Positions 15,869 to 63,223 of a stretch of DNA of 64,000 bases are shown one piece after another. Each line of letters begins with the position of its first letter. Positions within the stretch are counted from its first letter, which is position 1. The notes under the pieces are model-generated. The model ran no database searches, was not told the DNA's origin, and saw only the letters and a program-made list of their open reading frames with translations. The DNA is from Oceanidesulfovibrio indonesiensis (GTDB lineage: Bacteria > Desulfobacterota > Desulfovibrionia > Desulfovibrionales > Desulfovibrionaceae): the NCBI RefSeq assembly GCF_007625075.1, contig NZ_QMIE01000002.1, forward strand, positions 1-64,000, written 5' to 3'. A program made the position numbers and the translations under genes.

Positions 15869-15872
15869 AGGG

Positions 15873-16631: not shown

Positions 16632-16692
16632 ACAAATACACTCCTGCGTCATGTCCGTGGGGCGTGAGCCCCGTGAGCAGCGCGTCCAGTTG

Positions 16693-38843: not shown

Positions 38844-38854
38844 GAGGCGATTGA

Positions 38855-42595: not shown

Positions 42596-44002
42596 CTATT
42601 CCTCTGTGAAATTGTCGAACATCTCGATGTCGGTGTATCGCACCAGGTCGGCGAAGCAGGCCATGCCGTCGTGTTTCCAACGCATGGATGGTTTATGCAT
42701 GGATCCGGGCGAGGTGATGTGCGAGACGCCGGCGCGAGCGAGCATTTCCGCCAGCGGCACAGCGCGTTTCCTGGAGCAGGCCAGCCCCACGTTCTGCAGG
42801 AATTCGCCTTTGCCGCGGCAGAGCTCTATCACTTCCTTGAGGTCCGCCACCGGGCAGACGCGCAGGTACCGCGCCGGTAATACGCCTGTGAAGGACGGAG
42901 TGGACTCGTGCACCACGGTATGAGAAGGGCCGGCAAAAACGTGCATCCCGTCGTCCTGCGCGGCCTGGAAGGCGGCGATGTTGCGTTCCATGCCCAGACT
43001 TGCCGCGGCGTCCAGATTTGTGGACGAAGCGGGCAGAATGCTTTCCAGTGCAGCGAGCTCCTGCCCTGCGAGTTCTGCGAAGTGTTCCGTTGAGACGTTT
43101 CCGCCGGTCTCGACGTAACAAATTTGCGGGGAGACGCAGGCGCGCTGGTCGAACATGACCACGTCCAGGGCGAGCCGGGCGGCGAGTCGCCGTGCGGATT
43201 TCTCGTCGGCCAGAGCCTCCCGGCCCACCATGGCGAGGCTGATCTTGTGGCCGTGCACCACAATACGCTTGCTCGCGCCCCAGGTCTCACGGAAATGGGC
43301 CACGCTCTGGACGCCGCCGTATACGATGAGGGTGTCGCTCGGCGCGATCATGGCCTGCTCAAGCGCAGCGTCCGAGCTGGACCAGAAAAGCAGGGCGGCG
43401 GTTTCGGCGAGGGGTGGTTCGATCGCGGCCACGCTTTGCATCCACGCCGGACCGAAGACCGGCTCGCGGCTGGAAAGCTTGGCGGCAAGAGGGCTCTTGA
43501 CCATCATTGCGCGGACCAGGGGAAGATACGCCAGGCCGGGCACGTTGGAAGTAAGGATGGCAGCGACCAGCTCCGAGCCGAAGGCGCGGGTCATTCCCTT
43601 CAAATTCGGATCGTCCACGAAGCCGTCCAGGCAGTGACGGTTTCCCAACTCGCGGTCGAGTGCGGCAAGGATGTCCGCGGCGCTGCTGTTGCCCTGCTCC
43701 ACGGTGATGGACGCTTCCACCACAGGCACGGAGAGACCGGTGAGCGCGCTGACGGCTGTGGCTACCCGGGATTTGACATCAGAGGCTTTTTGCCAGAACG
43801 CGGCTGCGCGGCCGAATATTTCCGCGAGCTGGTCCACGCTGTACATGGCCAGAGTTTCGCGGCCCCTGGCCAGACGCTCGATCTGCGCGCGCACATCGTC
43901 TGGTGTGAGGATGGGGACCTCAAGCTCCAGCGGGCCGATGTCGATGCGTTCGAGCCGGCCTTTGTAGCCTGGCAGATGGTATCCGCGAAGCACGTTGCTC
44001 AT
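42596..44002 (-). CDS. LuxC-like acyl reductase
   Basis: A 468-residue LuxC-family (PF05893) protein of the aldehyde dehydrogenase superfamily. The active Cys is in MFDQRACVSPQ (Cys 289); ILTSNVPGLAYLPLVRAMMVKSPLAAK and FAGPSHTVVHES are family blocks. LuxC reduces an acyl group to an aldehyde using NADPH. The gene overlaps the LuxE-like gene by four bases. Its presence predicts an aldehyde intermediate in the pathway. Confidence 0.88.
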   Translation of the reverse strand: MSNVLRGYHLPGYKGRLERIDIGPLELEVPILTPDDVRAQIERLARGRETLAMYSVDQLAEIFGRAAAFWQKASDVKSRVATAVSALTGLSVPVVEASITVEQGNSSAADILAALDRELGNRHCLDGFVDDPNLKGMTRAFGSELVAAILTSNVPGLAYLPLVRAMMVKSPLAAKLSSREPVFGPAWMQSVAAIEPPLAETAALLFWSSSDAALEQAMIAPSDTLIVYGGVQSVAHFRETWGASKRIVVHGHKISLAMVGREALADEKSARRLAARLALDVVMFDQRACVSPQICYVETGGNVSTEHFAELAGQELAALESILPASSTNLDAAASLGMERNIAAFQAAQDDGMHVFAGPSHTVVHESTPSFTGVLPARYLRVCPVADLKEVIELCRGKGEFLQNVGLACSRKRAVPLAEMLARAGVSHITSPGSMHKPSMRWKHDGMACFADLVRYTDIEMFDNFTEE

Positions 44003-45042
44003 CGCACGTCCTCCAGATTCAAGCTGCACCCACGCGGGGCGGATCCCGAAGCGCGGCCGATGATTTCGAAGCAGAAGTCATCGCAGGCCTGGGCGAGATC
44101 GTCGGTGAGAATGGCCATGGGCCGGGCCACGTTGGCGAGGTCGTACAGCACCGGCACGCCTTGCCCACCAGGGGATGTTTCTTCCAATGTGAGAGGGTTG
44201 CAGACCCGTACGCGCGTCCAATGAGCCGGCGTCTTGGGCTGGAGGCCGCGGCTGTAGAACTGGCTGGCCAGTTCCGTCAGGCCATAGAGGTTGATGCACA
44301 TATCTTTGGGGATGGCGAAAAAATCCGCGCATATGCGCACGAATTCCCCGCGGGTGAGCTCGCGGCTGCGGCCTTTGAAGCCCCCAGCGTCCAAAATGCG
44401 GCTGCCGGCTGGCAGTGCAACGGCGTTGTCCTTGCCGAGGCCTTCTACGAAGTTCACGATGCCGAAAGAGCCGCCGATGATGGTGACGGGCACGTTCTCG
44501 TCCGCCCATTGCCGCAATCTTTGGATGCCCTCGTCCAGCAGCAGTCGGCCCGGACCAACGGCGCAGAATGGTTCGGCCAAGGCCCATGTCCTGCTGATGT
44601 GGTCCATGCCGTAGGCCATGATGACGTCCGGCGCCATGGCCGGCGGGGGGACGAGCATGAAGAAGCGAGTCTTCTGCCCGTCCGGAAAAAAGTGTTGCGC
44701 TGCGTTGGCCAGGATGGATGCATTCATCAGTTCAAGGTCTGCTGCATCGAAGATGGAGGCGCCGCGGCCTTTGCCGCTGGTGCCGGACGTGCGGAATGTT
44801 TTGACGACATCGCCGCCTGCGAAGAATTCGAACTTCTTGAACACGCCGAGGCCAACGGCGGGGATGTCGGCGTACGTGTCGATGGAATCCGGAGACCAGC
44901 CGAGGCTGTCCCAGAACGCGGCCAGGGTCGGGAGGTTGGCGTACTGCCAGCGGCAGATGGCGCGGGCCAGGGCATCGAAGTCATCAGTCGTTTCATCCGC
45001 GATGAATCGGCGAATCCGTTGGATTATTGAGTGTTTGTCCAT
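43999..45042 (-). CDS. LuxE-like acyl-protein synthetase
   Basis: A 347-residue acyl-adenylating enzyme of the LuxE family (PF04443). The ATP-binding loop is TFRTSGTSGKGRGA (about residues 83-96), and INLYGLTELASQFY is the second family motif. LuxE activates a fatty acid as acyl-AMP and passes it to LuxC for reduction. First gene of a three-gene operon with LuxC and an SDR. No luxAB luciferase genes are near. Confidence 0.88.
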   Translation of the reverse strand: MDKHSIIQRIRRFIADETTDDFDALARAICRWQYANLPTLAAFWDSLGWSPDSIDTYADIPAVGLGVFKKFEFFAGGDVVKTFRTSGTSGKGRGASIFDAADLELMNASILANAAQHFFPDGQKTRFFMLVPPPAMAPDVIMAYGMDHISRTWALAEPFCAVGPGRLLLDEGIQRLRQWADENVPVTIIGGSFGIVNFVEGLGKDNAVALPAGSRILDAGGFKGRSRELTRGEFVRICADFFAIPKDMCINLYGLTELASQFYSRGLQPKTPAHWTRVRVCNPLTLEETSPGGQGVPVLYDLANVARPMAILTDDLAQACDDFCFEIIGRASGSAPRGCSLNLEDVR

Positions 45043-45707: not shown

Positions 45708-47099
45708 TTATTCTTTCTCAGGGTGCAGCACCGGATCGATCGTTGGTTGCCATTTTCTGGTCATCTGGAAGAACTGCATGTTCATGCCAAGGTAGAACAT
45801 TGGATGCACTCGCGGGCCCTTGATGATGCGGCGGAAGATGGAGGACAGGGAGAACGTATACTTCCACAGGGCGCGCAGGCCTTGTTCCAGCTCTTCCACG
45901 CTCATGCCCACGGGCTCATACACGCAGTTCAGCGTGTCGTATCTGGTCCAGTCGCGGGTGCGGATGCGGCCTTGCTCTTCCATCTCCTTGAACAGCCGCG
46001 TGCCGGGGTAGGGCGTGCGGATGAAGGTGAGCGCCCAGTCCAACTGATTTTCGATGGCGAAGTCGTAGATGCGGCGGAAGATAGTGCGGTCCTCGTTGTC
46101 GAACCCTACGACGAAGGTGCCCATGATGCCGATATTGTGTTGGTGCAGTGTCTTGATGGCTGCCACGTAGTCGTGCCCGGCTGCGTACGACTTGTGCATG
46201 GTCCTGAGGTGCTCCGGGTCCAGGGACTCGAACCCAACGTTCACGGCGATGCAGCCACTCCGCCGCATCATCTCCAGAAATTCTAAATCGTTGGCGATGT
46301 CCACCGTGGCGTGGCACCACCATTTCACATCCATGAGTTCGAGCCCGCGCATGATCTCCATGGCGTGGGAACGGTTGGCCGCGAAGTTGCTGTCGATAAA
46401 GTAGATAAGCCGGCGTTCGATGAAGTAGGGCAAGTCCAGCCCTGTCCTGGCGAGAAGTTGGCTGACGCCGTGGCGGAAGCCGCCGCCGAACATGGAGCCG
46501 AGCTCGCCCAGGACCTCGGAGGGAGGACGGGTGCGGTAGCGGTGTCCGAAGAAGCTGGACACGCCGCAGAAATCGCACTTGTGGGGGCAACCGCGGGTGG
46601 TCTCCACCAGGGTCAGCGGCAGGTAGCGGCGCAGGGGCAGAAGCTCCCGCCTGGGTGGCGCGATGCCGGCGAGGTCCTGCGTGGTGTCGGCCTGGTAGCG
46701 TTTCTGCAACCGGCCGTTCTCGAAATCGCTCAGCAATTGCGGCCAGATGAACTCGCCTTCACCCAGGATGACGGTGTCCACGTGTTCCAGCGCTTCGTCC
46801 GGCAGGGTGGAGGCGTGCACCCCGCCCATGACCACCGGCACGCCGCGTTTGCGGAAAGCGTCGGCAATCTGGTATGCCCGTGGCGCAACAGGCGTTTGCG
46901 CCGTAAGGGCCACGAGGTCCGCCTCGGCCGCGAAGTCCACGGGGGTTACGTCTTCGTCGATGATCGCAACGTCCCAGTCATCCGGCGTGGCCGCGGCGAG
47001 GTAGGGCAGGTTCAGAAATCCCAGCTTGAAGACAAAGTCCTCGCCGGGCATGCGTTCCCGGGCCGGGGAAATCATCAGCAGCTTTTTCGATGAGGGCAT
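45708..47099 (-). CDS. B12-binding-domain radical SAM enzyme (5)
   Basis: A 463-residue enzyme. Cobalamin-type domain with VPVVMGGVHASTLPDEALEHVDTVILGEGE; cluster motif TTRGCPHKCDFC (Cys 171, 175, 178); then NVGFESLDPEHLRTMHK and TPYPGTRLFKEMEEQGRI. Same group as the enzymes at 18742, 20526 and 56056. It is the only one of the eight not inside a multi-gene operon. The start codon at 47099 overlaps that proposed for the plus-strand gene; a start at 47114 is also possible. Confidence 0.87.
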   Translation of the reverse strand: MPSSKKLLMISPARERMPGEDFVFKLGFLNLPYLAAATPDDWDVAIIDEDVTPVDFAAEADLVALTAQTPVAPRAYQIADAFRKRGVPVVMGGVHASTLPDEALEHVDTVILGEGEFIWPQLLSDFENGRLQKRYQADTTQDLAGIAPPRRELLPLRRYLPLTLVETTRGCPHKCDFCGVSSFFGHRYRTRPPSEVLGELGSMFGGGFRHGVSQLLARTGLDLPYFIERRLIYFIDSNFAANRSHAMEIMRGLELMDVKWWCHATVDIANDLEFLEMMRRSGCIAVNVGFESLDPEHLRTMHKSYAAGHDYVAAIKTLHQHNIGIMGTFVVGFDNEDRTIFRRIYDFAIENQLDWALTFIRTPYPGTRLFKEMEEQGRIRTRDWTRYDTLNCVYEPVGMSVEELEQGLRALWKYTFSLSSIFRRIIKGPRVHPMFYLGMNMQFFQMTRKWQPTIDPVLHPEKE

Positions 47100-47547
47100 G
47101 GATGTGGGTTCCAAAATCAGAAAAAAGATTAAGTCGCGGGTTATCTACCATTCCAGCACGCTGGGCATAGCCGAGGTCCAGCAGATGGGCGTTGCGTCGC
47201 TGGACAGCGAGGCGTTCAGAGTCCAGCTCAATCCGTCCGGCGCGGGTCCCGGTCTCGATCTCGGCGTGGCGTTCGATCGTCTCCAGTCGGTCAAGGCATT
47301 CCAGAAAAAGTCCTACAGCTCCACGTCTTATCTGGTCGAGGTCTCGTACGTGGACAACAGCGGCAACCTTCAGTCCATCACCCTGGAACTGCGCGTATTC
47401 TTCCGCCGTGGCCAGGCGCTTCAGGCGGCCAAAGCATGGAAAGAGGTTTTCGCCAACCTCAGTGGCGATGCTCCTGCCGAAGAGCAGCCACCCAGGCAGC
47501 ACCCGGAGCAGGCCGCGGTGTCCGAAGCATCCCAGCCGGACGAATAG
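47098..47547 (+). CDS. Small hypothetical protein (possibly PilZ-like)
   Basis: About 150 residues with beta-rich text (SLDSEAFRVQLNPSGAGPGLDL, SYLVEVSYVDNSGNLQSITLELRVFF) and an acidic, Pro/Gln-rich tail. No firm family; the length and strand pattern recall PilZ-like or PH-like domains, but no motif supports either. Two starts are possible: ATG 47098, overlapping the divergent radical SAM start, or ATG 47185, which has GAGG eight bases upstream. It is convergent with the operon ending at 47620. Confidence 0.5.
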   Translation: MDVGSKIRKKIKSRVIYHSSTLGIAEVQQMGVASLDSEAFRVQLNPSGAGPGLDLGVAFDRLQSVKAFQKKSYSSTSYLVEVSYVDNSGNLQSITLELRVFFRRGQALQAAKAWKEVFANLSGDAPAEEQPPRQHPEQAAVSEASQPDE

Positions 47548-47619: not shown

Positions 47620-49158
47620 TTAAATCTCCACCGTCTCATCCGGTTCGTAGCCCTTGAATTCGCCTTTGAGCGGCCGCCCGCGTTCGCGCAGGTAGCTCTC
47701 GAAGGTCTGGTAGTTGTCCTGCGTCCACAGCGGCTTGCCGAACACCTCGTGCTGCATCACCTCGAAGCCGTACTTCATGAAATAGCGGTGGTGGTGGCGC
47801 AGGATGGGGTTCTTGGAAAAAAACATCCGCCACAGCTCGATGGGGCGCCAGTAAAACTTACGGATCATGCCCAGATGGATCTCGGTGATCTTGTTCAGGT
47901 CGTCGATCTCCTTTGTGGGCATGGTGGCCTGGATGTAGTCGAATTTGCGGTAGTCGTTCGTCTTGATGCGGCCCAAGGCCTTCATCTCGTCGTAGAAACC
48001 GGTGCCGGGCAGCGGCGTCACCACGTTGAGGCCGAAGTGGTTCACGTACTTCGCGCAGAAGTCGAAGAGCTTCTGTCGGTCCTCTTTGGTCTCGTCCCAG
48101 TGGCCTATCATCAGCGTGGCCATGATCATGAAGTCGTGCTTTTTCAGTATCTCCATGGCCTTTTCCAGGGTCTCCATGCTGATGCCCTTGTCCAGGCCGT
48201 CCAGGACTTCCTGATTGGTGTACTCCACGCCGATCATGAACTGGTAGACGCCGGCCTCCTTGTATCCCTGCATCAGGTCCTCGTCGCGCACTACAAGGTC
48301 CGCGCGTGACTGAAGCCAGAAATGCTGGTCCAGCTTGCGCTTTTTCATCTGCTCGATGAAGCCGGTGGCGCGCTTCCGGGTGAAGTTGAAGATGTTGTCG
48401 CCTACGTAGAAGGTGTCGCGGTTGTATTTTTTCTTGAGCAGTTCCAGTTCCTCGCCAATGAGCTCAGGCGAGCGGCCGCGCCAGGATCGCTCCCAGAACA
48501 CGGACTCCGAGCAGAATTTGCAGCGGAAGCCGCAGCCCCGCGCGAAGTTGACGAGGAAGGCGCGTTTGCCCTCGGAAGGCAGCCCTACATAGGGATGCTC
48601 CATGTCCACCATATGGTAAGCGGGCATGGGCAGGGCATCGAGGTCCTGGATGAGCTCGCGTTTGCCCGTGTAAACGGGTTTGCCGTCCGGGCCGCGGTAG
48701 CACAGGCCCGCGATGTGCGAGAAGTCCGGGTTGCCGTCCTCCACGTTGGCCAGAAATTCCTTGGCTGTCAGCTCGCCCTCGCCCATGCAGATGTAGTCGA
48801 TCTCCGGACACTCGCGCAGGGTTTCCTCGGACATCAGCGTAGGGTGCGCGCCGCCAACCAGGACAATGGATTCCGGCAGCACTTCCTTCACCAGCGCGGC
48901 GGCGTTGTAACCGTCGTAGGTAAAGTAGGTGCAGCCTATGGAGATGCCCACCACGTCCGGCCGCGATTCCTTGAGCTTGGCTTCGAGATCGTGCCAGGGA
49001 CGCTGGTTCAGCGTGCAGTCCATGAACTCCACGTCAAAGTAGTCTTCCAGGTAAGCGGCCAATTGCAGGCAGGCCGGACTGGGGATCCAGGCCTTGAGGA
49101 TGTCCCAGATCTTGTGCGGCGGGTCGATGAGCAGGAATTTGAGTTTCGATTGTTTCAT
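47620..49158 (-). CDS. B12-binding-domain radical SAM enzyme (6)
   Basis: A 512-residue enzyme, last gene of the core operon. It starts LKFLLIDPPHKIWDILKAWIP and has VLVGGAHPTLMSEETLRECPEIDYICMGEGE; cluster motif NFARGCGFRCKFC (Cys 209, 213, 216) followed by WERSWRGRSPE. It pairs with the enzyme at 26852 as a second subfamily. The ATG at 49158 overlaps the upstream stop; the longer open frame to 49749 is an overlap with the flavoprotein gene, not coding. Confidence 0.88.
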   Translation of the reverse strand: MKQSKLKFLLIDPPHKIWDILKAWIPSPACLQLAAYLEDYFDVEFMDCTLNQRPWHDLEAKLKESRPDVVGISIGCTYFTYDGYNAAALVKEVLPESIVLVGGAHPTLMSEETLRECPEIDYICMGEGELTAKEFLANVEDGNPDFSHIAGLCYRGPDGKPVYTGKRELIQDLDALPMPAYHMVDMEHPYVGLPSEGKRAFLVNFARGCGFRCKFCSESVFWERSWRGRSPELIGEELELLKKKYNRDTFYVGDNIFNFTRKRATGFIEQMKKRKLDQHFWLQSRADLVVRDEDLMQGYKEAGVYQFMIGVEYTNQEVLDGLDKGISMETLEKAMEILKKHDFMIMATLMIGHWDETKEDRQKLFDFCAKYVNHFGLNVVTPLPGTGFYDEMKALGRIKTNDYRKFDYIQATMPTKEIDDLNKITEIHLGMIRKFYWRPIELWRMFFSKNPILRHHHRYFMKYGFEVMQHEVFGKPLWTQDNYQTFESYLRERGRPLKGEFKGYEPDETVEI

Positions 49159-50597
49159 GGGCGTGAGTCCTTGAGTATCGTGTGAACGCACAAGCGCCCG
49201 GAAATCATTGCGGCGGCCAGGCCGCCTCCGGGCATGCTCCAATGGCCCGCGAGGTACAGGCCGCGTTTCGGTGTCGTGGTGCTCAGCCGGCGGAATCCAG
49301 ACTGGGCGGGAATCTGCGTCCAACCGTAGGCCGAGCCGCCGGGATTGCCCGTCATGGCTTCCAGGCTGGAGGGGGTCAGGGAAAACAGCGGGTCCAACTG
49401 TCCGGCCAGTTCGGGAACTGCCGACGCGAGCGCGTCCAACAGGCGTGAGTGCAACTCGCGACAATTCGTACGATCTGGCCGCCTTCCGGGAGCGAGCGGT
49501 ACGCTGAGGCACACGCAGTGCGAGTCTGCCCGGGCCATTTCCCTGTCCACCAGCGACGGAATGAGCAGGTACCACGGCCGGCCGTCCGAGTCGACGTACT
49601 CCATATTGGGGAATACGGCGCCGCGGCGGTGCAGCTCGTCCACCACATTGGCAGGCGCGCTGCAATAGAGAATATAGTACGAACCGCTCATGCGTAGAGA
49701 ACTGATGCGGTTCCAGAAGGTTTCCGGGAGCATGGAGGAGCCGTGGCATGCGCGTTCCAGCTGGGCGATGCTGGCCGCCCAGACCAGCGCGTCGGCGTAG
49801 TGCGTTTTGTAATCGGTCCGGACCGTGAAACTATCGCCAGCTGCTTGTACCTCCCGAACGCCGCGGCCACGCAGAATGGTCCCGCCGCTTGACTCGATGC
49901 AGCGCACCAGCGCGTCCACCAGGCGGGCAACGCCGCCGCGGATCATGTATGCGCCGTTCCCGAAGGTCATCTCGTTACAGGCGAAACCCACCAGGGAAAT
50001 CTCGTCCGCGGCAAGCAACTGGTAGCCTGCGCGGGCGGCAAAGAGCCGGGCAAGCTCCGGTGGAAAGCCGAGTTCGTCCATGAACGCTTGCAGTGTCTGA
50101 TCATGCCGGGCAGCCAGAGTGGGGCAGCGCCGCACGAAGGAGAATCTGGCATGCGAAGAATCATTCGAGAGGGCGAGAAGTTCTTCGAAAATGGCGCGGA
50201 GGGTGTCAAAGGCTGCGGCCACGGCGTCGGCGTGGTCAGGAAATCGCGCGGCCAGCTCGTCGCGCTGCTTTTTCCAGGAACCGTGCTGCACGTAGGGGGC
50301 GTCCATTCCAGGGAAATGGTAGACACGCGCCGGCTCGCAGGGCAGGGCCTGCACGCGGTCAGCAATACCGAGGTCGTCGAGAATGTTCATGATCTCGCCG
50401 TCCGGACCGAGGCCACCCAGCGCCTGGGTGGCGATGTCGAAATGGTGGCCGTTTTTTTTGAACGTGGCGGCGTAGCCCCCGACGCGGCGGTTCTTATCCA
50501 GCACCAGCACGTCGCGACCGGCAGCGGCCAGGTATGCCGCGGCAGTGAGGCCGGCCACGCCAGCGCCGGCCACGATGATTTCGTGCTGCGAAGCCAC
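49155..50597 (-). CDS. CrtI-like flavoprotein (2)
   Basis: A 480-residue FAD enzyme of the phytoene desaturase family: IIVAGAGVAGLTAAAYLAAAG, VLDKNRRVGGYAATF, then MIRGGVARLVDALV and a C-terminal LYLAGHWSMPGGGLAAAMISG. It starts with GTG at 50597, six bases after the fused ketosynthase gene. It is a distant paralogue of the flavoprotein at 29201. A desaturase, saturase or isomerase role on the acyl chain is likely; direction of the redox step cannot be told from sequence. Confidence 0.85.
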   Translation of the reverse strand: MASQHEIIVAGAGVAGLTAAAYLAAAGRDVLVLDKNRRVGGYAATFKKNGHHFDIATQALGGLGPDGEIMNILDDLGIADRVQALPCEPARVYHFPGMDAPYVQHGSWKKQRDELAARFPDHADAVAAAFDTLRAIFEELLALSNDSSHARFSFVRRCPTLAARHDQTLQAFMDELGFPPELARLFAARAGYQLLAADEISLVGFACNEMTFGNGAYMIRGGVARLVDALVRCIESSGGTILRGRGVREVQAAGDSFTVRTDYKTHYADALVWAASIAQLERACHGSSMLPETFWNRISSLRMSGSYYILYCSAPANVVDELHRRGAVFPNMEYVDSDGRPWYLLIPSLVDREMARADSHCVCLSVPLAPGRRPDRTNCRELHSRLLDALASAVPELAGQLDPLFSLTPSSLEAMTGNPGGSAYGWTQIPAQSGFRRLSTTTPKRGLYLAGHWSMPGGGLAAAMISGRLCVHTILKDSRP

Positions 50598-50602
50598 GAT
50601 GT

Positions 50603-52912
50603 TCAACCAATTTTCTCCACAAGCGAAGCGGCCATAAGCCCGCCTCGGGAGGAGGTGCAGTTCAGAATCATGCCCGGTGCGATCCGAGAGGACAGCAGCC
50701 CGTACGCCAGACACAAGCCGCTTGCTGTACCGGACTCGCCGAGCATGGCGCGGGGATTCGCCCGCGACGTAGTTTTCAGCGAATTCCGTAGAACAGGGAC
50801 ATCAGGGCCGAATATGGCGAGCGGTTTTTCAGCGATATCGACTCCATTCAGCGTGCTGTGGGCCGCCTGCGCCAACGAGCCGTAATCCTGCGCATACTCC
50901 TGCGGTCCGCATCCGGAGCTGGCCTGTTGCGCGGCGGCGAGAATCCGGCCAATGATTGGCGCGCCGCGCTCCCGTGCATTGTCCTCGTTTTCCAGCACCA
51001 TGCAGACGGCCCCTTCCCCGAGGCGCAGGGGATTTTCGCCGTCAAAGAAGCCGAGGGCATGGTGGATGTCCAGGATGGCCGGACTGATTTCCTCCGCCGC
51101 TGCGACCAGCACCGTGTCGGCCTGGCCATCGCGGATCATGTCCGCTCCCCAGGCGAGGCAGGCGTCGAAAGAGCATTCGTCGGCCACGAAGACCCAGACC
51201 GGCCCAGATAGTCCGAGTTGCTGCGCCTCCAGCGCGGCCGGCGCGTTGGTCACCGAAAGGATGAAGTGGGGCGGCAGTACGTTGCGGGGGCCGTCCGTGA
51301 GTATGGCGTTGTAGAAATGGTGCACGCTGCCGGAGCAACCATAGGCCGTGCCGAAGGCCATGGCTGCATCGCGCAGGTCGTCCGGCGTCAGGTCGGCGTG
51401 GTCCAGGGCCTCGCGCACAGCCAGATGCAAAAACATGGCCGGCCGGTTGAGATGCCGACGCCGCGCCGGAGGGATGGCCGCGCGGACCGGCCCCATGTCC
51501 ACCAGGCCGCCGCAGAGGCTTACGAAACGTGAATCGACGGTTTCCAGTGAGTTGAGTCCGCTCTTACCGCTATCAACACCATGAATCAGCGCTTCGCCCC
51601 CCATGCCGTAAGGCGAGACCACCCCTATGCCGGTGACGGCCACGCCAGAGGCGGGAATCCCGGTGGACGCGTCGTCACGCAGGGAATCCGTGAACGCCAC
51701 GCTGATGTCGCTGCCGCCGAAGGCGAAGGAGTTGGAGAGCGCGCAGCGTACGGGTTTGCTGTGGGCTTTTGGCGCGAGGTCCAGACCCAGGTCCGGGGCA
51801 GGCGATTCCAGGTGCGCGGTGGGTGGGCACACGCTGTTGTTCATGGTGAGCACTGTGGCCACTGCCTCCACAATGCTGGCCGCCCCGAGCAGGTGGCCGA
51901 GCATGGATTTGCTGGACGAAATAGTCAGGTGCGCAGGCTCCGGACCGAAGAGCGCCACCACGCCGTGGGCTTCGGCCGCGTCGTTGAGCGGCGTGCCGGT
52001 GCCGTGGGCGTTCAGGTAGTCGATGTCCGTGGAGGTTCTGCCGGCGTCTCCCAAGGCCAGGCGCATGGCCGTGGCGGCGGCGCCGCCTGTGGGCTCCGGG
52101 GCAGTGAAGTGGTGCACGTCCGTGACCAGGCCGTAGCCGGCGAGGTACGCGAGCGTCCTGTGTGGCTGGGCGTCGGCCGTGTCCGGTCGTTCCAGCACGA
52201 TGGCTCCGGCGCCTTCGCCCAGGACGAGTCCTTTACGCGCGGCATCGAACGGCCGACATAATTCCGGGTCGATGGAGCGCAAGGAATTGAAACCGGCGTG
52301 CGTGACCTGGCATAGAGACTCCGCACCGACCACGAGCACGCGGTCCGCCTGCCCGCGGCGCAGCACGTCCAGCCCGGCGGCCAGAGCCAATCCGCTGGAT
52401 GAGCAGACCGTGGCCACGGTGGTGCGGTAGCCGGCAATGCCGAATTCCAGCGCAATGTTCGTTGCCAGCGCCGAGAGCGTGAAGGAGGTGAGCAGATCCG
52501 CGGCGTCGTACTCCGTGCCCTCGAATTTGTGTCTGAAGAAGGTTTCCAGTCCGAGGATGCCGCCAGCTGAAGTGGCGCAGATCAGGGCGGTGCGCTGGCT
52601 ATCCTGCACGCAGCCGTCGGCGTCCAGCAAATTTGACTGGGAGAGCGCCTGTCTCGCGGCGTCCAGCGCGAAGATATCGCCGCGGGAGAGCACGGCTTTA
52701 TTCAGTCGGAGGGGATCGTATCCGGGAGAATCCTTCACCTCGGCGGCGCGCTGGGTGCGGTGGCCGGAGGCGTCGAAGACGGTGATGGCGCCGAAACCGT
52801 CCACGCCGGCCACGAGGTTTTTCCAGAACGCGTCCGCACCTGTTCCGACGGAAGAGACCACGCCAAGGCCGGTGATGGCGGCGTCCATGTATTTTGGACC
52901 AGGGCGGATCAT
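50603..52912 (-). CDS. Fused ketosynthase-chain length factor-like protein
   Basis: A 769-residue protein with two thiolase-fold ketosynthase units. The N-terminal unit is complete: active Cys in TVATVCSSSG (Cys 170), NAHGTGTPLND (His 303), SMLGHLLGA (His 340) and SNSFAFGGSD. The second unit starts near residue 421 (ASGVAVTGIGVVSPYG). It has no HGTGT and no second catalytic His, and FVADECSFDA stands at the active-site place, so it looks like a chain-length-factor partner. Such pairs are normally two polypeptides; here they are one. It overlaps the LolA-like gene by four bases. Confidence 0.88.
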   Translation of the reverse strand: MIRPGPKYMDAAITGLGVVSSVGTGADAFWKNLVAGVDGFGAITVFDASGHRTQRAAEVKDSPGYDPLRLNKAVLSRGDIFALDAARQALSQSNLLDADGCVQDSQRTALICATSAGGILGLETFFRHKFEGTEYDAADLLTSFTLSALATNIALEFGIAGYRTTVATVCSSSGLALAAGLDVLRRGQADRVLVVGAESLCQVTHAGFNSLRSIDPELCRPFDAARKGLVLGEGAGAIVLERPDTADAQPHRTLAYLAGYGLVTDVHHFTAPEPTGGAAATAMRLALGDAGRTSTDIDYLNAHGTGTPLNDAAEAHGVVALFGPEPAHLTISSSKSMLGHLLGAASIVEAVATVLTMNNSVCPPTAHLESPAPDLGLDLAPKAHSKPVRCALSNSFAFGGSDISVAFTDSLRDDASTGIPASGVAVTGIGVVSPYGMGGEALIHGVDSGKSGLNSLETVDSRFVSLCGGLVDMGPVRAAIPPARRRHLNRPAMFLHLAVREALDHADLTPDDLRDAAMAFGTAYGCSGSVHHFYNAILTDGPRNVLPPHFILSVTNAPAALEAQQLGLSGPVWVFVADECSFDACLAWGADMIRDGQADTVLVAAAEEISPAILDIHHALGFFDGENPLRLGEGAVCMVLENEDNARERGAPIIGRILAAAQQASSGCGPQEYAQDYGSLAQAAHSTLNGVDIAEKPLAIFGPDVPVLRNSLKTTSRANPRAMLGESGTASGLCLAYGLLSSRIAPGMILNCTSSRGGLMAASLVEKIG

Positions 52913-53580
52913 GGCCGGTTCATCTCGTTGATTTCCGTGCCTGCCGGCAAGGTGAAGTCTATAACGACATCCGGCAGGGGCTCGTTGATGCGCACGTCGT
53001 GCAGTTCAATGACTGTAGCGCCGCCGCCTTTGGGCGTGATGCGGATGGAGGTGGCGTACAGGCCTTCCGGGTCCAGGACAACCTCGATACGCTGGGGGCC
53101 GTTCTCGCCGCCGGCGGAGACAAGGTGGTAGCCGTCGTCTTCCCTGGAGATTGCGCCCGAGAAGTCCTGCGGCCGCCAGTCGAAGAGATTTGGATTGGAA
53201 CCAGCTTGTCCGGAGGCAGACGTGTCGTCCATCTGCATCACATCGGCCGTGGGGCTATCCTGTACCCAGAACAGCACTTCCCCCTCTTGCACGCGCAAAA
53301 TGTGCTGCGTGGGCTTTTCGTAACGCAGGAAAATGAGCGAGTCCCCGCGCTGCACGTAAAGCGTGCCTGTAAACACGAGGGGCCGCGGCAGGGTGGATAT
53401 GGTGCGAGTCTCGGTAAACCGGGCCTGCACGGTGCGGATGTCCTGCTGCGCGGTCTGGAGCCGCTGCAGGAAGGCGTCGCGCTCGGCGTCGTCGAGTTCG
53501 TTTGCGGACGCGCTACCTGCGACGAACGCCATGAGGCAGATGAGGAGCAACGAGGCAAAGAGGTGATGGCGGATCGACAT
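52909..53580 (-). CDS. LolA-family periplasmic lipid/lipoprotein carrier
   Basis: A 223-residue protein with a signal peptide (LFASLLLICLMAFVAGSASA) and a LolA-like half-barrel: IRTVQARFTETRTISTLPRPLVFTGTL, LIFLRYEKPTQHILRV, then ENGPQRIEVVLDPEGLYATSIRI. LolA proteins carry acyl chains in a hydrophobic cavity; aryl polyene clusters carry a similar one. Five bases after the methyltransferase stop. Together with the carrier at 16631 and the lipoprotein at 22390, this is the third Lol-fold protein of the locus. Confidence 0.85.
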   Translation of the reverse strand: MSIRHHLFASLLLICLMAFVAGSASANELDDAERDAFLQRLQTAQQDIRTVQARFTETRTISTLPRPLVFTGTLYVQRGDSLIFLRYEKPTQHILRVQEGEVLFWVQDSPTADVMQMDDTSASGQAGSNPNLFDWRPQDFSGAISREDDGYHLVSAGGENGPQRIEVVLDPEGLYATSIRITPKGGGATVIELHDVRINEPLPDVVIDFTLPAGTEINEMNRP

Positions 53581-53584
53581 GGCG

Positions 53585-54253
53585 TTATCCCTGCAAACCT
53601 GCTGTAATCCAAAGTTCCGAGCCCCCGGCGCGTATTGTAAAACGCCGTATGGAACGGGTTCCGAGGATGCCTCGAATTTCGTCGGTGGTCCAGGCTGAAC
53701 GCACGGACTCCTCAAGCCCGTTGCGGCCTGGGCTCAGGAGGAATGCCGTTTTCCACAACGCGTTCATGGCGCGAAACCGGGCGCGGGCCATGTCGCGCCG
53801 GAAGTCGATGAGCAGGAACACGCCGCCCGGGGTGAGCACGCGGTCCACCTCGGCCAGCATGGCGCCAGGATCGTCCATGTGGTGCATGGCGTAGAAGGAC
53901 GTGACCACGTCGAAGCTCGCATCGGCAAAGGGCATCCGCTCGCCCTCGGCCTGTATGAAGAAGGCGTGGCGGTCGAGCCTGTTCGCGAGGTTCTGCGCCT
54001 TCGTGAGCATGGGCAGTGCCACATCCAACCCGGTGAGGGTCACTTTTGGCCGGAACGCCTTGAAATGCAGCGGGATAGCGCCAGGACCGGTGCCGATATC
54101 CAGCAAGCGAAGCGGGGCGTCGGGATCGAGCCGGAGGATGCGGTTCACGCGCCACGCCGCTGCCTTGCCGGTCCAGGCGGAGACCTTGGCGAACACGCCG
54201 AGGGTGTCTGTTTCCAGCTCGCGGCCTTCGGGGATGCGCTGCTCAAAGACCAT
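53585..54253 (-). CDS. SAM-dependent methyltransferase (class I) (1)
   Basis: A 222-residue Rossmann methyltransferase: motif I LLDIGTGPGAIPLHF, acidic loop in LTGLDVALPMLTKA, then FADASFDVVTSFYAMHHMDD and VLTPGGVFLLIDF. The UbiE-like pattern suggests a lipid or quinone-like acceptor for C- or O-methylation. It overlaps the small membrane protein by eleven bases. Confidence 0.85.
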   Translation of the reverse strand: MVFEQRIPEGRELETDTLGVFAKVSAWTGKAAAWRVNRILRLDPDAPLRLLDIGTGPGAIPLHFKAFRPKVTLTGLDVALPMLTKAQNLANRLDRHAFFIQAEGERMPFADASFDVVTSFYAMHHMDDPGAMLAEVDRVLTPGGVFLLIDFRRDMARARFRAMNALWKTAFLLSPGRNGLEESVRSAWTTDEIRGILGTRSIRRFTIRAGGSELWITAGLQG

Positions 54254-54704
54254 GGGCAATCTCCACGCCGCCGTAGTACAGCGCCAGGGTGGCAGCCCCC
54301 CCCACCAGGGCTCCGGACAGTATGGCGAGCGTGCCGCGCGCTGGACTGAATCCGAGCATGAAGGCGAGGATGGTGGCGGAAAGAACGCCGAACCCACGTA
54401 CCGGCACAGTGGCTACGGTCATGACGAGCAGCGGTTTGGTCCGCGCCAATCGGGACCACCAACCGTCTCTGGCCAGGCGTTCCTGCCAACGTCCGCGGCG
54501 TTTTTCGATCCAGCGGGCAAAGCGATTTCGCGTCTTCCTGGGGTTGCAGAAACGGTCCAGCACCAAGCCGTAGGCGGTGAGCTGCCCCCAATCCAGGGCC
54601 AGGGAAACCGCAAGAGCAACCGCCGGGTGCACTCCAAGAGCGAGGCTGGAGATTATGAAACCGGTCCTCCCCAGAATGACGTAGGCCGGGAAAGACGCGG
54701 CCAT
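54243..54704 (-). CDS. Small multi-span membrane protein
   Basis: A 153-residue protein with about four membrane segments (AYVILGRTGFIISSLALGV, AVALAVSLALDWGQLTAYGLV, LLVMTVATVPVRGFGVLSATI, GALVGGAATLALYYGGV) and a basic loop (RKTRNRFARWIEKRRGRW) that should face the cytoplasm. I do not recognise the family with confidence; it is similar in size and layout to small multidrug-export-like proteins. Start at 54704, just past the upstream stop. Confidence 0.65.
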   Translation of the reverse strand: MAASFPAYVILGRTGFIISSLALGVHPAVALAVSLALDWGQLTAYGLVLDRFCNPRKTRNRFARWIEKRRGRWQERLARDGWWSRLARTKPLLVMTVATVPVRGFGVLSATILAFMLGFSPARGTLAILSGALVGGAATLALYYGGVEIAHGL

Positions 54705-54709: not shown

Positions 54710-56056
54710 CTACGGCGTGCAAAAGCCTCGTGCCTCCAGGGATCGTTGCACCGGCGCGTTCCACATGGTGTTGGCCAGCCTGGTCTGGGCGCGGTGCAGG
54801 GCGAAGTTCGCCATCAGGAAAAACGGATACTGACGCCGCCTGAGAGAGAGTCGCTTGAAGATGACGGATGGCGAAGCCAGGTACTTGAGAGCCCAGGCGA
54901 ATCCCTGCTGCAACTCCTCGGGCTCCATGCCGGCTGGCCGGTAGACGACGTGGCTCATGTCGTAATCGTCCCAGGGCATGTCCAGCAGGCGTCCCTGTTC
55001 CTTCATCTCGCGGTACAGCGGGGTGCCGGGCAGGGGGGTGAGGATGTTCAGGTTGGGAATCTCGATGCCCGTTTCCATGACGAACGAGACCACATCGGAA
55101 AAGACCTCGGGAGTGTCTTCATCGAATCCGAAGATGAACGAGCCCTGGATGCCGATGCCGTAGGAGCGGATGCGGTCCACGGCATCCGCCAGCGCCGCGC
55201 GGGAGGGGTAGCGCCGGTTCTTGTGGTAGAGGGCCTGGTCGTTGAGGGATTCGAACCCGATGAACAGCGAGGTGCAGCCGCTTTTCCTGAGCGCCTCCAG
55301 AAATTCCGGCTCGTCGGCGATGGCGAGGTTGGAGAAGCCCATCCAGGTCATGCCGTATTTTTTGAGCAGCCCGAATATCTCGATGGCGCGGGCGCGGTCC
55401 GCCGTGAAGTTGTCGTCCACCACGAAGACGCGCTTCATGCCCTTGGCGCGTATGCCCTTGAGCTCTTCATCCAGCGTCTCGATGGATTTGACCCGCAGCT
55501 TGCGACCGAAGGTGGCGGGCACGGAGCAGAAGTCGCAGGCCAGCGGGCAGCCGCGGCTGGTCTGGATGGACGCCATGAAAAAGCGGTGTCGCCAGCTCAG
55601 GGCCTCCATGGCCGGGAAGGGGATGGCGTTCAGGTCGGCTGGGGAGTCGCTGGTGTACCGTGGGGCGAGTTGCCCGGCTTCGAAGTCCGCGAGAATCTGC
55701 GGCAGGAGGTTCTCGGCCTCGCCGATGACCACGCTGTCCGCATGGTGGGCGACTTCGTCCGGACAGGCCGTGGCGTGCGCGCCGCCCATGATGACCGGTA
55801 CGCCGCGGCTTCGGAAGTCGTCGGCAATTTCGTATGCCCGGCTGACCAGGGTGGTCATGGCGGTAAGCATCACGAGATCGGCCTGCGCCGATCCGTTGAG
55901 CGGACGCAGATTCTCGTCGTGGACCACGGTCTCGAACCGCTCCGGCATGGACGCGGCCAGCTGGGTAAGCCCCTGCAAGGGAAAGGGGAAGATGGCGTCG
56001 GCTGTCTTGTTGGCGCCGCCGCGGGGATAGATCAGCAGGACCCGCTTCTTAGACAT
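54710..56056 (-). CDS. B12-binding-domain radical SAM enzyme (7)
   Basis: A 448-residue enzyme. VPVIMGGAHATACPDEVAHHADSVVIGEAE marks the cobalamin-type domain; cluster motif QTSRGCPLACDFC (Cys 170, 174, 177); FIGFESLNDQALYHKNR and NILTPLPGTPLYREMKEQGRL follow. Same paralogous group as those at 18742, 20526 and 47099. It overlaps the next radical SAM gene by eight bases. Confidence 0.88.
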   Translation of the reverse strand: MSKKRVLLIYPRGGANKTADAIFPFPLQGLTQLAASMPERFETVVHDENLRPLNGSAQADLVMLTAMTTLVSRAYEIADDFRSRGVPVIMGGAHATACPDEVAHHADSVVIGEAENLLPQILADFEAGQLAPRYTSDSPADLNAIPFPAMEALSWRHRFFMASIQTSRGCPLACDFCSVPATFGRKLRVKSIETLDEELKGIRAKGMKRVFVVDDNFTADRARAIEIFGLLKKYGMTWMGFSNLAIADEPEFLEALRKSGCTSLFIGFESLNDQALYHKNRRYPSRAALADAVDRIRSYGIGIQGSFIFGFDEDTPEVFSDVVSFVMETGIEIPNLNILTPLPGTPLYREMKEQGRLLDMPWDDYDMSHVVYRPAGMEPEELQQGFAWALKYLASPSVIFKRLSLRRRQYPFFLMANFALHRAQTRLANTMWNAPVQRSLEARGFCTP

Positions 56057-57326
56057 CGCCGCGTTTGATCAGGGATTCCAGCCGTTCCAGGGTGCCATGC
56101 GACGTCTCCCGCGCATTGCAGCGCTTCACGGCGTCCACCACCTGCACAGGACGGCAGCGCATCATGCAGGTCTGCTTGTCGAAGGGGTGCTCCTCGCGAA
56201 TCTTGCGGATGGCCTGGAAGAAGTCCGATTTGAGGATGTCGCTGTAGGGTTTCTCGCGGATGTTGTCCACGGCGAAGGGAAAAAGGATGCACGGTTCCAC
56301 GTCGCCGTCCGGGTTGATATGGACCACGAGCCTTGCCGCGCTGCACCCTTCAGTGATGTAGGCGTCGGTGTAGAAGTCCAGGAGCAGGATTTCCTTGCGC
56401 CTGCGCAGATCTTTCAGCTTTTCGCGTAGGGTGGCCTTCTGCTGCGGCGTGGGCAACAGCTCGGTGTCGGTAATGGCCTTGCCCTGCGGAACGACCATGG
56501 GGATCCAGCCGTAAAGCGCGCCGTTCTCGATCATAGCGTCCATGAACTCGTCGGAGAATATTTCCTCGAAGTTGTGGCGGCAGAGCATGGCCGAGAAACC
56601 GACGAAGACGCCGGCCTTGTTGAGCTTGCGCATGATGGCCGTGATCTTGTCGAAGGTGCCTTCGCCGCGGCGCTTGTCCGTGTTTTCCTTGAGGCCGTCC
56701 ACGGACAGGGCGATGGAGACATGGCCCATCCTGGCGATGCGCTCGATCTTTTCGTCGGTAAGCAGCAGGCCGTTGGAGAAGACCAGGAACGCGACCTTGG
56801 GGAACTTCTCCATGACGTCGATGAGCCACGGGTTGATGAGGGGCTCGCCGCCGAGGAACATGATGAGGTTGGTGCCGGAGTGGGCTGCATCGGAGACGAG
56901 TTTTTCCACTTCCTCCCGTGTCAGGCTGTTGCCGGCGTCGTGCGTGCCGATGGCGCAGCCGTAGCACTTCATGTTGCAGCGGAATGTGGGGCTTATCTGC
57001 ATCACGCCGGGCGGCGCCACGTTGAACTCGTTGTAGAATTTGAGCCGCTTCTTGTAACCGGTGAGCAGACCGCCGAGCACCAGGTTGTTCAGCACGGCGG
57101 AGCGCGCTCTGGGATTCAGCGTCTTGAGAGCGCGCTTGGCGGCGCGGATGCCGTGGTGATCCTCGCGGATCATGGTCTTGATGTTCTCGATGCCCTTCTT
57201 CTGCCACTCGATGGAGGCCAGGGGTTCCAGCAGGCTGATAATCCGCAGCAGGTTTTCGTTGGACACGGAGCCCATGAACCGCATGGCCTGGCTGGAGATG
57301 GCGGTGGGAATGGAAAGATCGAACAT
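56049..57326 (-). CDS. Radical SAM enzyme without B12 domain, SPASM-like tail
   Basis: A 425-residue enzyme. An unusual helical N-terminus of about 110 residues precedes the cluster motif SPTFRCNMKCYGC (Cys 117, 121, 124). LIMFLGGEPLINPWLIDVMEKFP is the GGEP-type SAM-binding block. A C-terminal Cys set (EGCSAARLVVHINPDGDVEPC, then QTCMMRCRP) suggests one or more auxiliary clusters. It belongs to the broad HpnH/MoaA-like side of the superfamily, not with the other eight. Substrate unknown. Confidence 0.85.
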   Translation of the reverse strand: MFDLSIPTAISSQAMRFMGSVSNENLLRIISLLEPLASIEWQKKGIENIKTMIREDHHGIRAAKRALKTLNPRARSAVLNNLVLGGLLTGYKKRLKFYNEFNVAPPGVMQISPTFRCNMKCYGCAIGTHDAGNSLTREEVEKLVSDAAHSGTNLIMFLGGEPLINPWLIDVMEKFPKVAFLVFSNGLLLTDEKIERIARMGHVSIALSVDGLKENTDKRRGEGTFDKITAIMRKLNKAGVFVGFSAMLCRHNFEEIFSDEFMDAMIENGALYGWIPMVVPQGKAITDTELLPTPQQKATLREKLKDLRRRKEILLLDFYTDAYITEGCSAARLVVHINPDGDVEPCILFPFAVDNIREKPYSDILKSDFFQAIRKIREEHPFDKQTCMMRCRPVQVVDAVKRCNARETSHGTLERLESLIKRGDV

Positions 57327-57406: not shown

Positions 57407-58246
57407 TCATTGTCGAGCCGGGTTCGCGGCAAAGGTCGTTCTGCTCACACCGGGCAGCAGAACGCGCCCCCGGCTGAGTGTTGCGAGTGTATTGGACAGG
57501 AGCGTCGTATACGTCGATATCCCGCGTTTGACAAGATTCCGCGGCCGTGTGGCGGCCATGGTGACAGTTGAAAAATCAGCAAATCCGGCCTGCTCCAGCA
57601 GCAGGTCCATGGAGCGGCCGGCAAAGTCGTGGATGTGCGATGGCGCCTGCATCACCGTGAGTTTTCTCGCCAGCGGGGTACACAACCGGATGATGGGCGT
57701 GGTGTTGGGATAACGCAGCACGAGCAATCCGCCGGTGCGCAGCATGCTGCGCACCGTGCGCAGCACACCGAGCGGGTCGGTGACGTGTTCGATGACGTAG
57801 AACATGGTGACGGCGTCGAACTGCTCCTCCGGTTCGATATCCTCGATGGCCTTGCCGTGGATGGTGGCGCCGGTCTTCTGGCGGGCGATGGCTGCGGCCG
57901 GCTTGGAAAGCTCCACCCCTTCCACCGCGTAGCCACGGCGGACCATTTCCTCCAGAAAGAAGCCGTATCCGCAGCCGATATCCAGCACGTTGCCGACCGG
58001 GCCGATGCGCGCCGCGACCTGGTCCGCCGTCTGCCGCACAACGTGGCGCATTTCCAGCCCCCAATCGCGCACGGCGTCCGGCTCGGGATCGAGATACTCC
58101 TGATAATGATCGGCCAGGAATGCGGCGTCCGGTCTGGGCCACATGAAGAGCAGGCCGCAGGAATCGCAGCGGCGATAGTCGTGGCCGGATTCGTTGTAAA
58201 AGGGGCGGGTTCGGGCGCTGTCGCAGAGGGGGCAGGGAGTTGTCAT
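57407..58246 (-). CDS. SAM-dependent methyltransferase with N-terminal zinc ribbon (2)
   Basis: A 279-residue protein. The N-terminus has paired Cys (CPLCDSARTRPFYNESGHDYRRCDSCGLLF), a zinc-ribbon seen in methyltransferases of nucleotide-sugar and lipid pathways. Motif I is NVLDIGCGYGFFLEEMV, then FDAVTMFYVIEHVTDP and LRTGGLLVLRYPN. It overlaps the radical SAM gene upstream by four bases. Acceptor unknown. Confidence 0.85.
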   Translation of the reverse strand: MTTPCPLCDSARTRPFYNESGHDYRRCDSCGLLFMWPRPDAAFLADHYQEYLDPEPDAVRDWGLEMRHVVRQTADQVAARIGPVGNVLDIGCGYGFFLEEMVRRGYAVEGVELSKPAAAIARQKTGATIHGKAIEDIEPEEQFDAVTMFYVIEHVTDPLGVLRTVRSMLRTGGLLVLRYPNTTPIIRLCTPLARKLTVMQAPSHIHDFAGRSMDLLLEQAGFADFSTVTMAATRPRNLVKRGISTYTTLLSNTLATLSRGRVLLPGVSRTTFAANPARQ

Positions 58247-59616
58247 CGTCTGTTCGGGTCCAGGTGCAGCCACAGGGGGATGCGCGAGCCGCTCCGGCGG
58301 ATGCGCCGCGCCAGCTCCGGCGAACAACGAATGCCATGACCGGGAAAAATCCAGGTTCGGTGCTCGCGGGCGAGGCGGCGGATGGTTGTATCGAGATCGG
58401 CCTTGATAGCTTCGGAAAGGTAAAACACGGGTTCGAGCATGTCCGTATCACCATCGATGACGCCTTCCTGGCGAGCGATGCGCTCCAGCTCCGTATTGGG
58501 GATGATGCGGATGCCGGTCATGAAGATGACGGCTGTGGGGTCCATGGCGGCGATGCGTTCAGCCGTGGCGGCCAGGGTCTGCGGGGTCTCGCCCGGACCG
58601 CCCGCCAGGATGGCGTGGCAGAAGGGCAGCTCCGCCTTCGAGCACAGGCTGGAGGCTTCAACCGCATCCGCATGAGTGAAGGATTTACCCATACTCCGCA
58701 GCATTGCATCGTCCAGGGTGTCCGTGCCGAACTCCACTCCGACGCACCCGCTCTGGACGAAAAGTTCCACGGCCTCGGCGTCCAGCTTTGGCATGGCGTA
58801 GCATGTCCAGCGCAGTTCCAGTTTGCGGTCGATTATTTCCCTGCAGATGGACTTGGCGTTCTCCAGCGGGAAGTTGAACACGCTGTCCACGAAGAATACG
58901 TCGCGGCAACCGGCGCGGGTGAGCGCTTCCAGCTCGTCCACCACCTCATCCACCGGCCGCAGCATGGCGCGCGGGCCTTCTATGACCGGGTAGCTGCAGT
59001 AGATGCATTTCAGTGGGCAGCCGCGCTTGGTCTGCACGTTGGCCATGCCGCCCAGCTCCAGATAGCGGTCCAGGGGCAGGGACTCGCGCCGGGGCAATGC
59101 CGCTGGAAGAGGCATGCGCTCCTCGCGGGTGAAGGTGATGCTCTTGTCGCGGCGGATGAAGAGGTTGGGTACATCGAAGACGGCGTCTTGCGAAGCCGCG
59201 TTTTCCAGCGCATGGAGAAGGCTGATGAGCGGCCCCTCGCCGCTGCCCACGATGCCATAATCCGCTCCCAGTTCCTGCATAATGCGCTCCGGATAGAGCG
59301 AAAATCCGGAACCGCCCAGGATGACTGGGCAATCGATGGCTTTCGTGAGGCCGCGGCAGATATCCCGGAATTCGGTCAGATAGCTGCGGCTCTGGGGGTA
59401 GGCCACGTTGTCCACGTTGCGCAGGGAAAGAGCGATGGCGTCCGGTACAAAGGACAGCGCCAGGGCGTACAGTTCTTCCGGTGCGCCAAAATTGAGGTCG
59501 AAGGCTCGGTACTCATGGCCGGCATCGTGCAGCGCGCCGGCCAGGCAGGCGAGGCCCAGCGGGAAGACCGGGTCCGGCAGCAGCTCTTCGTTCAGAGTGA
59601 CGAGCAGGACGCGCAT
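58243..59616 (-). CDS. B12-binding-domain radical SAM enzyme (8)
   Basis: A 457-residue enzyme starting RVLLVTLNEELLPDPVFPLGL. VILGGSGFSLYPERIMQELGADYGIVGSGEG belongs to the cobalamin-type domain; cluster motif QTKRGCPLKCIYC (Cys 200, 204, 207). VGVEFGTDTLDDAMLRSMGK and ILAGGPGETPQTLAATAE are typical of the B12-radical SAM superfamily. It is distinct from the other two paralogous groups. It starts directly after the stop of the CLF-like gene. Confidence 0.88.
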   Translation of the reverse strand: MRVLLVTLNEELLPDPVFPLGLACLAGALHDAGHEYRAFDLNFGAPEELYALALSFVPDAIALSLRNVDNVAYPQSRSYLTEFRDICRGLTKAIDCPVILGGSGFSLYPERIMQELGADYGIVGSGEGPLISLLHALENAASQDAVFDVPNLFIRRDKSITFTREERMPLPAALPRRESLPLDRYLELGGMANVQTKRGCPLKCIYCSYPVIEGPRAMLRPVDEVVDELEALTRAGCRDVFFVDSVFNFPLENAKSICREIIDRKLELRWTCYAMPKLDAEAVELFVQSGCVGVEFGTDTLDDAMLRSMGKSFTHADAVEASSLCSKAELPFCHAILAGGPGETPQTLAATAERIAAMDPTAVIFMTGIRIIPNTELERIARQEGVIDGDTDMLEPVFYLSEAIKADLDTTIRRLAREHRTWIFPGHGIRCSPELARRIRRSGSRIPLWLHLDPNRR

Positions 59617-62760: not shown

Positions 62761-62788
62761 GTCCCAGGCCGTGCCGCGTATGTTCGAG

Positions 62789-63223
62789 TCAGTGCATTGT
62801 TCCGACTTCAAAGTACCGCGCCAGTCTGTGGATTCTTTTTTCGAGTTCGCCTTTGAGTTTGTAGACCATGGTTCCGTTGCTTTTCAGAAGGACCTGGTGG
62901 GTGCTGCCGCGGACCATGCACGTGCGGTCTTCGGCATCGACGATTTCGAAGGCGAAAACCAGCCTGGCTACGTCCTGAGGCAGCAATGTCAGGCGGACCG
63001 TTAGTTTTTGGTTGTATCGCGCCGGTGCTTTGTAATCGCATTCCAGATGGATGATCGGAGCGATGAACCCCAGATCGACCAGCTGGTTCGGCAAGAGGTC
63101 CACGGATTCCAGGACCTCGGTGCGCGCCACCTCGACATAGGCGAAGTAGTTTGCGTACCAGACCATTCCCCACTGGTCGGCTTCGTTAAACCGCACTGTG
63201 ACGTTGGTCTCGTGCCAGTGCAT
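62789..63223 (-). CDS. YbgC/4HBT-type acyl thioesterase
   Basis: A 144-residue hotdog thioesterase: VRFNEADQWGMVWYANYFAYVEVART holds the active Asp (about residue 16) and the family's YANY segment. It hydrolyses acyl-CoA or acyl-ACP. It lies between the ACP and glycosyltransferase genes and may release or proofread chains. Confidence 0.88.
   Translation of the reverse strand: MHWHETNVTVRFNEADQWGMVWYANYFAYVEVARTEVLESVDLLPNQLVDLGFIAPIIHLECDYKAPARYNQKLTVRLTLLPQDVARLVFAFEIVDAEDRTCMVRGSTHQVLLKSNGTMVYKLKGELEKRIHRLARYFEVGTMH

Follow-up and report, generated by a model that had tools for sequence, protein, structure and literature searches.

A ketosynthase and a chain-length-factor-like unit joined in one protein within a gene cluster that resembles those for ladderanes and polyunsaturated hydrocarbons

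Results

The window, by which we mean the whole 64,000-nucleotide stretch of Oceanidesulfovibrio indonesiensis DNA that was analyzed, encodes a protein in which a FabF-type ketosynthase (KS) is followed by a second unit of KS fold that resembles chain length factors (CLF) (Table 1). The first-pass annotation had given the interval but no strand; one open reading frame occupies exactly that interval on the minus strand, while the plus strand over it contains several stops; a 4-nt overlap joins the ATG of the fusion to the stop of the LolA-like gene. The Pfam ketoacyl-synt domain was matched in two stretches of the protein and Ketoacyl-synt_C in the N half only, and the Pfam scan gave no domain beyond these KS ones. 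Residues 12-407 match the NCBIfam fabF model along its whole length; this was the best NCBIfam model (384 bits), although the score does not reach the cut-off of 493.75 of the fabF equivalog (TIGR03150). In ketosynthases the active-site cysteine takes the acyl chain, and two histidines and a lysine decarboxylate malonyl-ACP. Cys170, His303 and His340 lie where they had been annotated, Lys335 is present as well, and a linker at approximately residues 409-422 leads into the C half. There the KS fold begins at about residue 421-423, close to the start of about 421 first proposed, and, as also proposed, HGTGT and the second histidine are missing; Glu579 replaces the cysteine and Glu726 the second histidine.

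Table 1. Coordinates of the fusion, its parts and neighboring genes in the window.
Feature	Coordinates	Strand	Remarks
Fused KS-CLF protein	50603..52912	minus	769 aa, ATG start, single open frame
N half (residues 1-411), FabF-type ketosynthase	51680..52912	minus	Cys170, His303, Lys335, His340
C half (residues 412-769), CLF-like, KS fold without triad	50606..51679	minus	Glu579, Glu726
Codon of catalytic Cys170	52403..52405	minus	
Codon of Glu579 (Cys position of C half)	51176..51178	minus	
LuxC-like acyl reductase and LuxE-like acyl-protein synthetase, two ORFs	42596..45042	minus	
B12-binding radical SAM protein	45708..47114	minus	homologue near fusion in 4/4 other genomes, 61-70% identity
B12-binding radical SAM protein, BchE-like	47620..49749	minus	below cut-off
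CrtI/phytoene-desaturase-like FAD oxidoreductase	49155..50714	minus	ORF as listed; start probably further in
LolA-like protein, upstream neighbor	52909..53715	minus	weak match to flexirubin LolA2, below cut-off
SAM methyltransferase	53585..54397	minus	
B12-binding radical SAM protein	54710..56056	minus	
Radical SAM/SPASM protein	56049..57326	minus	
SAM methyltransferase	57407..58327	minus	
B12-binding radical SAM protein, adjoins split pair	58243..59616	minus	rSAM_ladder_B12 (TIGR04072), 366.3 vs cut-off 360
Split paralogue, stand-alone CLF-like protein	59617..60828	minus	403 aa; 36% identity over residues 422-660
Split paralogue, stand-alone KS with triad motifs	60825..62033	minus	39% identity to N half
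Family 2 glycosyltransferase	61945..62811	minus	
4HBT-type thioesterase	62789..63223	minus	
Acyl carrier protein	63256..63447	minus	PP-binding, 40.8 bits, over cut-off

A structure prediction of the full protein, which the first-pass annotation had asked for, bore out one half of it. In the full-length AlphaFold model (pLDDT 70.8, pTM 0.69) only the N half is confident, with a TMt of 0.92 to FabF in the best rows, whereas the C half is poor, residues 437-484, 514-569 and 659-764 being mostly below a pLDDT of 50; we attribute this to the small number of CLF-like rows in the alignment. Modeled alone, the C half reached a pLDDT of 81.5 and a pTM of 0.85 and adopted a full KS/thiolase fold. Residues 8-358 of this lone model gave a best Z of 38.0 (rmsd 2.8, 328 aligned residues) among the 50 matches listed, and in Foldseek 6kxd_A came first by E-value, with 6kxd_B also listed (TMt 0.74).

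About 8 kb from the fusion, the same cluster holds a split, paralogous KS-CLF pair, whose two genes overlap by 4 nt and whose CLF-like member has Asp at the Cys position. The cluster also holds an MMPL gene. Nine radical SAM proteins are encoded in 17339-59616, eight with a B12-binding match and seven of these over the Pfam cut-off. Amid the lipid-like genes, 29203-32398 (minus strand) encodes a BadF/BcrA-type activase ATPase and two DUF2229 proteins, one of which has a weak, below-cut-off HGD-D match (2-hydroxyacyl-CoA dehydratase or benzoyl-CoA reductase type). Genes for a homocitrate-synthase-like protein and for both aconitase subunits, large and small, lie mid-cluster on the opposite strand (37662-40653, plus), within the 37-45 kb stretch, which has the least typical tetranucleotide profile among the cluster pieces. 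Positions 1-17000 have a G+C content of 0.556, against 0.61-0.63 elsewhere, and encode macro-domain and metallo-beta-lactamase-fold proteins.

The same fusion was found as one open frame in five genomes of three families: that of the window (G000), G167, G227, G224 and G521, the last with a run of 16 unknown residues within the N half. Between the protein of the window and those of the four other genomes, the N halves are 50-56% identical and the C halves about 40-45%. The KS triad of the N half is kept in all five, as are, in the C half, D578, E579, S581, G725, S727, G728, CGPQ (668-671) and RGG (756-758). The CrtI-like gene lies directly downstream in all five genomes, as two frames in G521. 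G224 keeps the gene order of the window throughout from 63521 to 45708: split KS and CLF, three radical SAM proteins, two methyltransferases, LolA, fusion, CrtI-like protein and two radical SAM proteins. LolA, fusion, CrtI-like and radical SAM genes are kept in G167, where a split-type CLF is on a different contig and no KS was seen next to it; fusion, CrtI-like and radical SAM genes are kept in both G227, which has a split pair elsewhere in its genome, and G521. The radical SAM protein at 47620..49749 has a homologue of 77% identity in G224, while next to the fusions of the remaining three genomes none was seen.

Genome sets, which overlap, were searched with the C half. In the phylum sample (n=395) the fusion was present in G000, G167, G227 and G224; fused matches extended to 7.2e-75, and the next match was far weaker, at 1.6e-32. 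The fusion occurred in one of two genomes of the genus, one of 348 of the window's class, 3/46 of the family of G167 (which added G521), 1/46 of the order of G224 and 3/85 of the class of G167, these being the same three as in its family. The matches listed in these searches included no split gene that came near the fused ones in identity. A whole-protein scan of genome contigs, in which exact peptide patterns can miss distant orthologues, gave the fusion in none of the best 80 of 310 relatives, and among 33 matching plasmid records none had 80% of the C half. This rare and patchy distribution suggests transfer between lineages.

Two maximum-likelihood trees were built, the first with 44 rows and the second with 48, after removal of eight rows (three long-branch CLF-like proteins with their KSs, and two fabFs) and addition of twelve. 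The N halves and the C halves of the fused proteins each formed a single clade (support 100/99 in the first tree, 100/100 in the second). The C halves fell outside the whole KS clade, across branches supported at 100/100 and 96/93 in the first tree and at 100/99 and 97/95 in the second, and among CLF-like proteins, on a long stem (1.51 and 2.08). Their nearest CLF relatives were CLF-like proteins of G105, G428 and G263, a weakly supported grouping (84/77) in the second tree; the N halves were nearest to the split KSs of G000 and G224, and the KS and CLF subtrees were incompletely congruent. Because each half forms one clade, and because the C half lies outside the ketosynthases and among CLF-like proteins, the protein arose from a pre-existing pair of KS and CLF-like genes, which most simply fused once. 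Pfam, active-site residues, trees and the lone C-half model thus agree with the annotation of a KS and a CLF-like unit within one protein. The suggestion that such a protein may define a new KS class fared less well: in the trees the N half, itself FabF-like, is nested within the ordinary split KSs of like clusters.

The best C-half matches in other genomes of the phylum sample were 16 split CLF-like loci (L029-L044). In nine, an intact KS gene precedes the CLF-like gene by at most 400 nt, the two standing as they do in the fusion; directly upstream of the other seven, one of which is at a contig edge, no intact KS is present. In pairwise BLAST alignments, ten of these 16 proteins have Glu at the Cys position, five Phe and one Asn, and the split CLF-like proteins of fusion-bearing genomes have Asp (G000), Ser (G224), Gly (G227) or Ala (G167) there. 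In G105, KS and CLF-like genes are followed by a 2-kb gap and then by CrtI-like and radical SAM genes, all separate; this locus is a possible split counterpart of the fusion within the same phylum.

Long frames or tandem KS matches drew attention to six regions, of which five proved to hold single or split KS genes, several of the KSs lying in long frames that are apparently non-coding ahead of the KS. The sixth, on contig C268 of G303 (L159:3888-6347, plus strand), holds a true second KS-CLF fusion of 820 aa, apparently independent, in which inspection by eye found an intact KS and a KS fold without the triad that reads GDASG near the Cys position. In the tree, the halves of this fusion lie outside both clades of fused halves. 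At two Tannerella loci (L093:1875-4133 and L121:2707-4947, plus strand) a frame of approximately 750 aa with a partial KS match directly precedes a separate KS and a CLF-like gene.

Discussion

We consider it likely that the fused protein is a single-chain KS-CLF condensing enzyme, derived from an adjacent KS-then-CLF pair of a fatty acid synthase II system of the ladderane/polyunsaturated-hydrocarbon type and standing beside a split pair. The N half would perform decarboxylative elongation on ACP, from malonyl-ACP and an acyl chain. The C half is incapable of this and, by homology, is predicted to pack on the KS as a pseudo-dimer partner, where it may shape the acyl tunnel and so set chain length or unsaturation. 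The fusion would work beside the second, split KS-CLF pair of the same cluster, and a fixed 1:1 ratio may prevent cross-pairing with it; the earlier proposal that a built-in pair fixes the ratio is plausible. The CrtI-like protein and the B12 radical SAM enzymes might then turn the chain into an unsaturated lipid or hydrocarbon.

A passive partner is not the only role that the C half could have. Asp578-Glu579-x-Ser581 and the Gly-Glu/Asp-Ser-Gly motif at the position of the second histidine could indicate acyl-ACP chemistry of its own, for instance hydration, isomerisation or recruitment of an unusual starter. The residues and motifs invariant in all five C halves fit such a role, as does Glu at the Cys position in ten of the 16 split CLF-like matches, and Rattray 2009 proposed that odd FabFs may recruit products from outside FASII (PMC2649909). 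We nevertheless judge this unlikely: both histidines of decarboxylation are gone, neither the Pfam nor the NCBIfam scan points to an enzyme of this kind, split relatives differ from one another at the Cys position, and a CLF, too, would conserve residues of its surface or tunnel. It is far less probable still that internal duplication of the ketosynthase within this protein produced the C half, as a decayed copy with no partner role. The fold common to both halves is what such a duplication would leave, yet the C halves stand outside the entire KS clade in both trees, and their identity of about 40-45% across families, together with the invariant motifs, argues that they are under selection.

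Least probable of all is an artefact of assembly or binning, be it a foreign contig or an error that removed a frameshift or a stop. The fusion is indeed confined to one genome among the 348 of its class, the assembly is in 330 contigs, and the tetranucleotide profile of the 8-kb piece of the cluster at 37-45 kb is less typical (correlations of 0.58-0.68 with seven stretches of the same genome); against this, the fusion recurs in four further genomes and the contig is 455 kb long. In the same tetranucleotide comparison, which is a modest test, the correlations of the 17-37 and 45-64 kb pieces are 0.67-0.86 with the seven own stretches, 0.65-0.67 with a stretch of G224 and 0.39-0.40 with one of G227; with the short low-GC contig C30 the values were 0.60-0.62. 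The composition of the cluster mostly fits the host, in whose genome dsrA scored over cut-off and which is therefore probably a dissimilatory sulfite reducer. Sequencing error was dismissed because four other genomes in two further families carry the same one-frame fusion. The first-pass annotation had allowed that relatives might have two separate genes and that the fusion might be such an error; instead all five orthologues found are fused, and the split pairs, one of them in the window, are more distant relatives.

The surrounding genes also speak for the single-chain KS-CLF reading. The window contains a radical SAM protein over the rSAM_ladder_B12 cut-off, and a FabF plus an odd FabF beside phytoene-desaturase-like and SAM radical genes. 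Rattray 2009 (PMC2649909) describes clusters in Kuenenia that combine genes for radical SAM and phytoene-desaturase-like proteins with FabF paralogues without active-site residues, and synteny of these clusters in Desulfotalea, which makes C31:8 and C31:9 hydrocarbons and in which ladderanes were undetected; it also proposes that the odd FabFs may recruit non-FASII products, and reports two R. baltica FabF paralogues with Asp and Glu at Cys163; the C half described here likewise has an acidic residue in place of the cysteine. According to Javidpour 2016 (PMC4790861, Table 2), kuste3605 is a FabF, kuste3606 a non-canonical FabF, kuste3607 a phytoene desaturase and kuste3608 a SAM radical protein; this order equals that of N half, C half, CrtI-like protein and radical SAM protein here. 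Likewise kuste2803 (SAM radical), kuste2804 (FabF) and kuste2805 (non-canonical FabB) equal in composition our split pair with rSAM_ladder_B12; both matches are positional only. The pairs of Kuenenia and Desulfotalea psychrophila are two genes where the fusion is one, and heterologous expression of the Kuenenia candidates left ladderanes undetected (PMC4790861). In its genes, the cluster resembles those for ladderanes and polyunsaturated hydrocarbons in Kuenenia and Desulfotalea.

The route by which anaerobes make ladderanes and C31 polyenes is an unsolved problem, and the fusion shows which FabF pairs with which odd FabF. It offers a new hint, that in such clusters the odd FabFs act as CLF partners. 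Tentatively, we would go further and entertain the possibility that the fusion is a Rosetta stone: were the non-canonical FabFs of ladderane and polyunsaturated-hydrocarbon clusters CLF subunits, these lipids would start from a polyene made by two KS-CLF machines, one of them single-chain here, and not from a saturated chain desaturated later. As a one-gene KS-CLF of fixed 1:1 ratio, the fused protein is directly expressible and testable.

In the type II KS-CLF systems of actinorhodin (1tqy), ishigamide (6kxd) and aryl polyenes (ApeO-ApeC) an active KS likewise has a partner of KS fold, but in two chains where the fused protein has one. The C half is approximately 20% identical to either chain of 6kxd, both of which are among its listed fold matches and of which 6kxd_B is presumably the CLF of the ishigamide KS/CLF. 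Classical CLFs have Gln at the Cys position; the C half does not match this, Glu579 being Glu in all five fused proteins. Of solved proteins, chain B of 9s5h is the best sequence match of the fused protein (to the N half) and chain C the second-best match of the C half, and these again are two distinct chains where here there is one; no paper naming 9s5h was found in open-licence PMC. In the PDB, 152 sequences matched the fused profile; the best 60 of these, all of at most 451 residues, included no linked KS-CLF chain. Among the papers listed from open-licence PMC, no title or start of an abstract describes a free-standing fused KS-CLF, anammox, FabF and heterodimer were not found together, and ladderane together with chain length factor returned only a study of a Streptomyces strain; the words fused, fusion and didomain do not occur in a paper cataloguing type II PKS clusters (PMC10132072).

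The premise of the first-pass annotation, that KS and CLF are normally separate chains, holds for the type II systems and fails for PfaC of PUFA synthases, which has a KS-CLF didomain in one chain (PMC12895367). The fused protein and PfaC share this linkage, and a linked KS-CLF being already known in PfaC, the fusion represents no new KS class. An origin from PfaC was considered and rejected, the N half scoring 384 bits with the FabF model against 80 bits with the PfaA model. PfaC is part of a multi-domain megasynthase, whereas the fusion is a free-standing FabF-like protein; what is new here is thus the free-standing FAS-II form of the linked KS-CLF, the linkage itself being already known.
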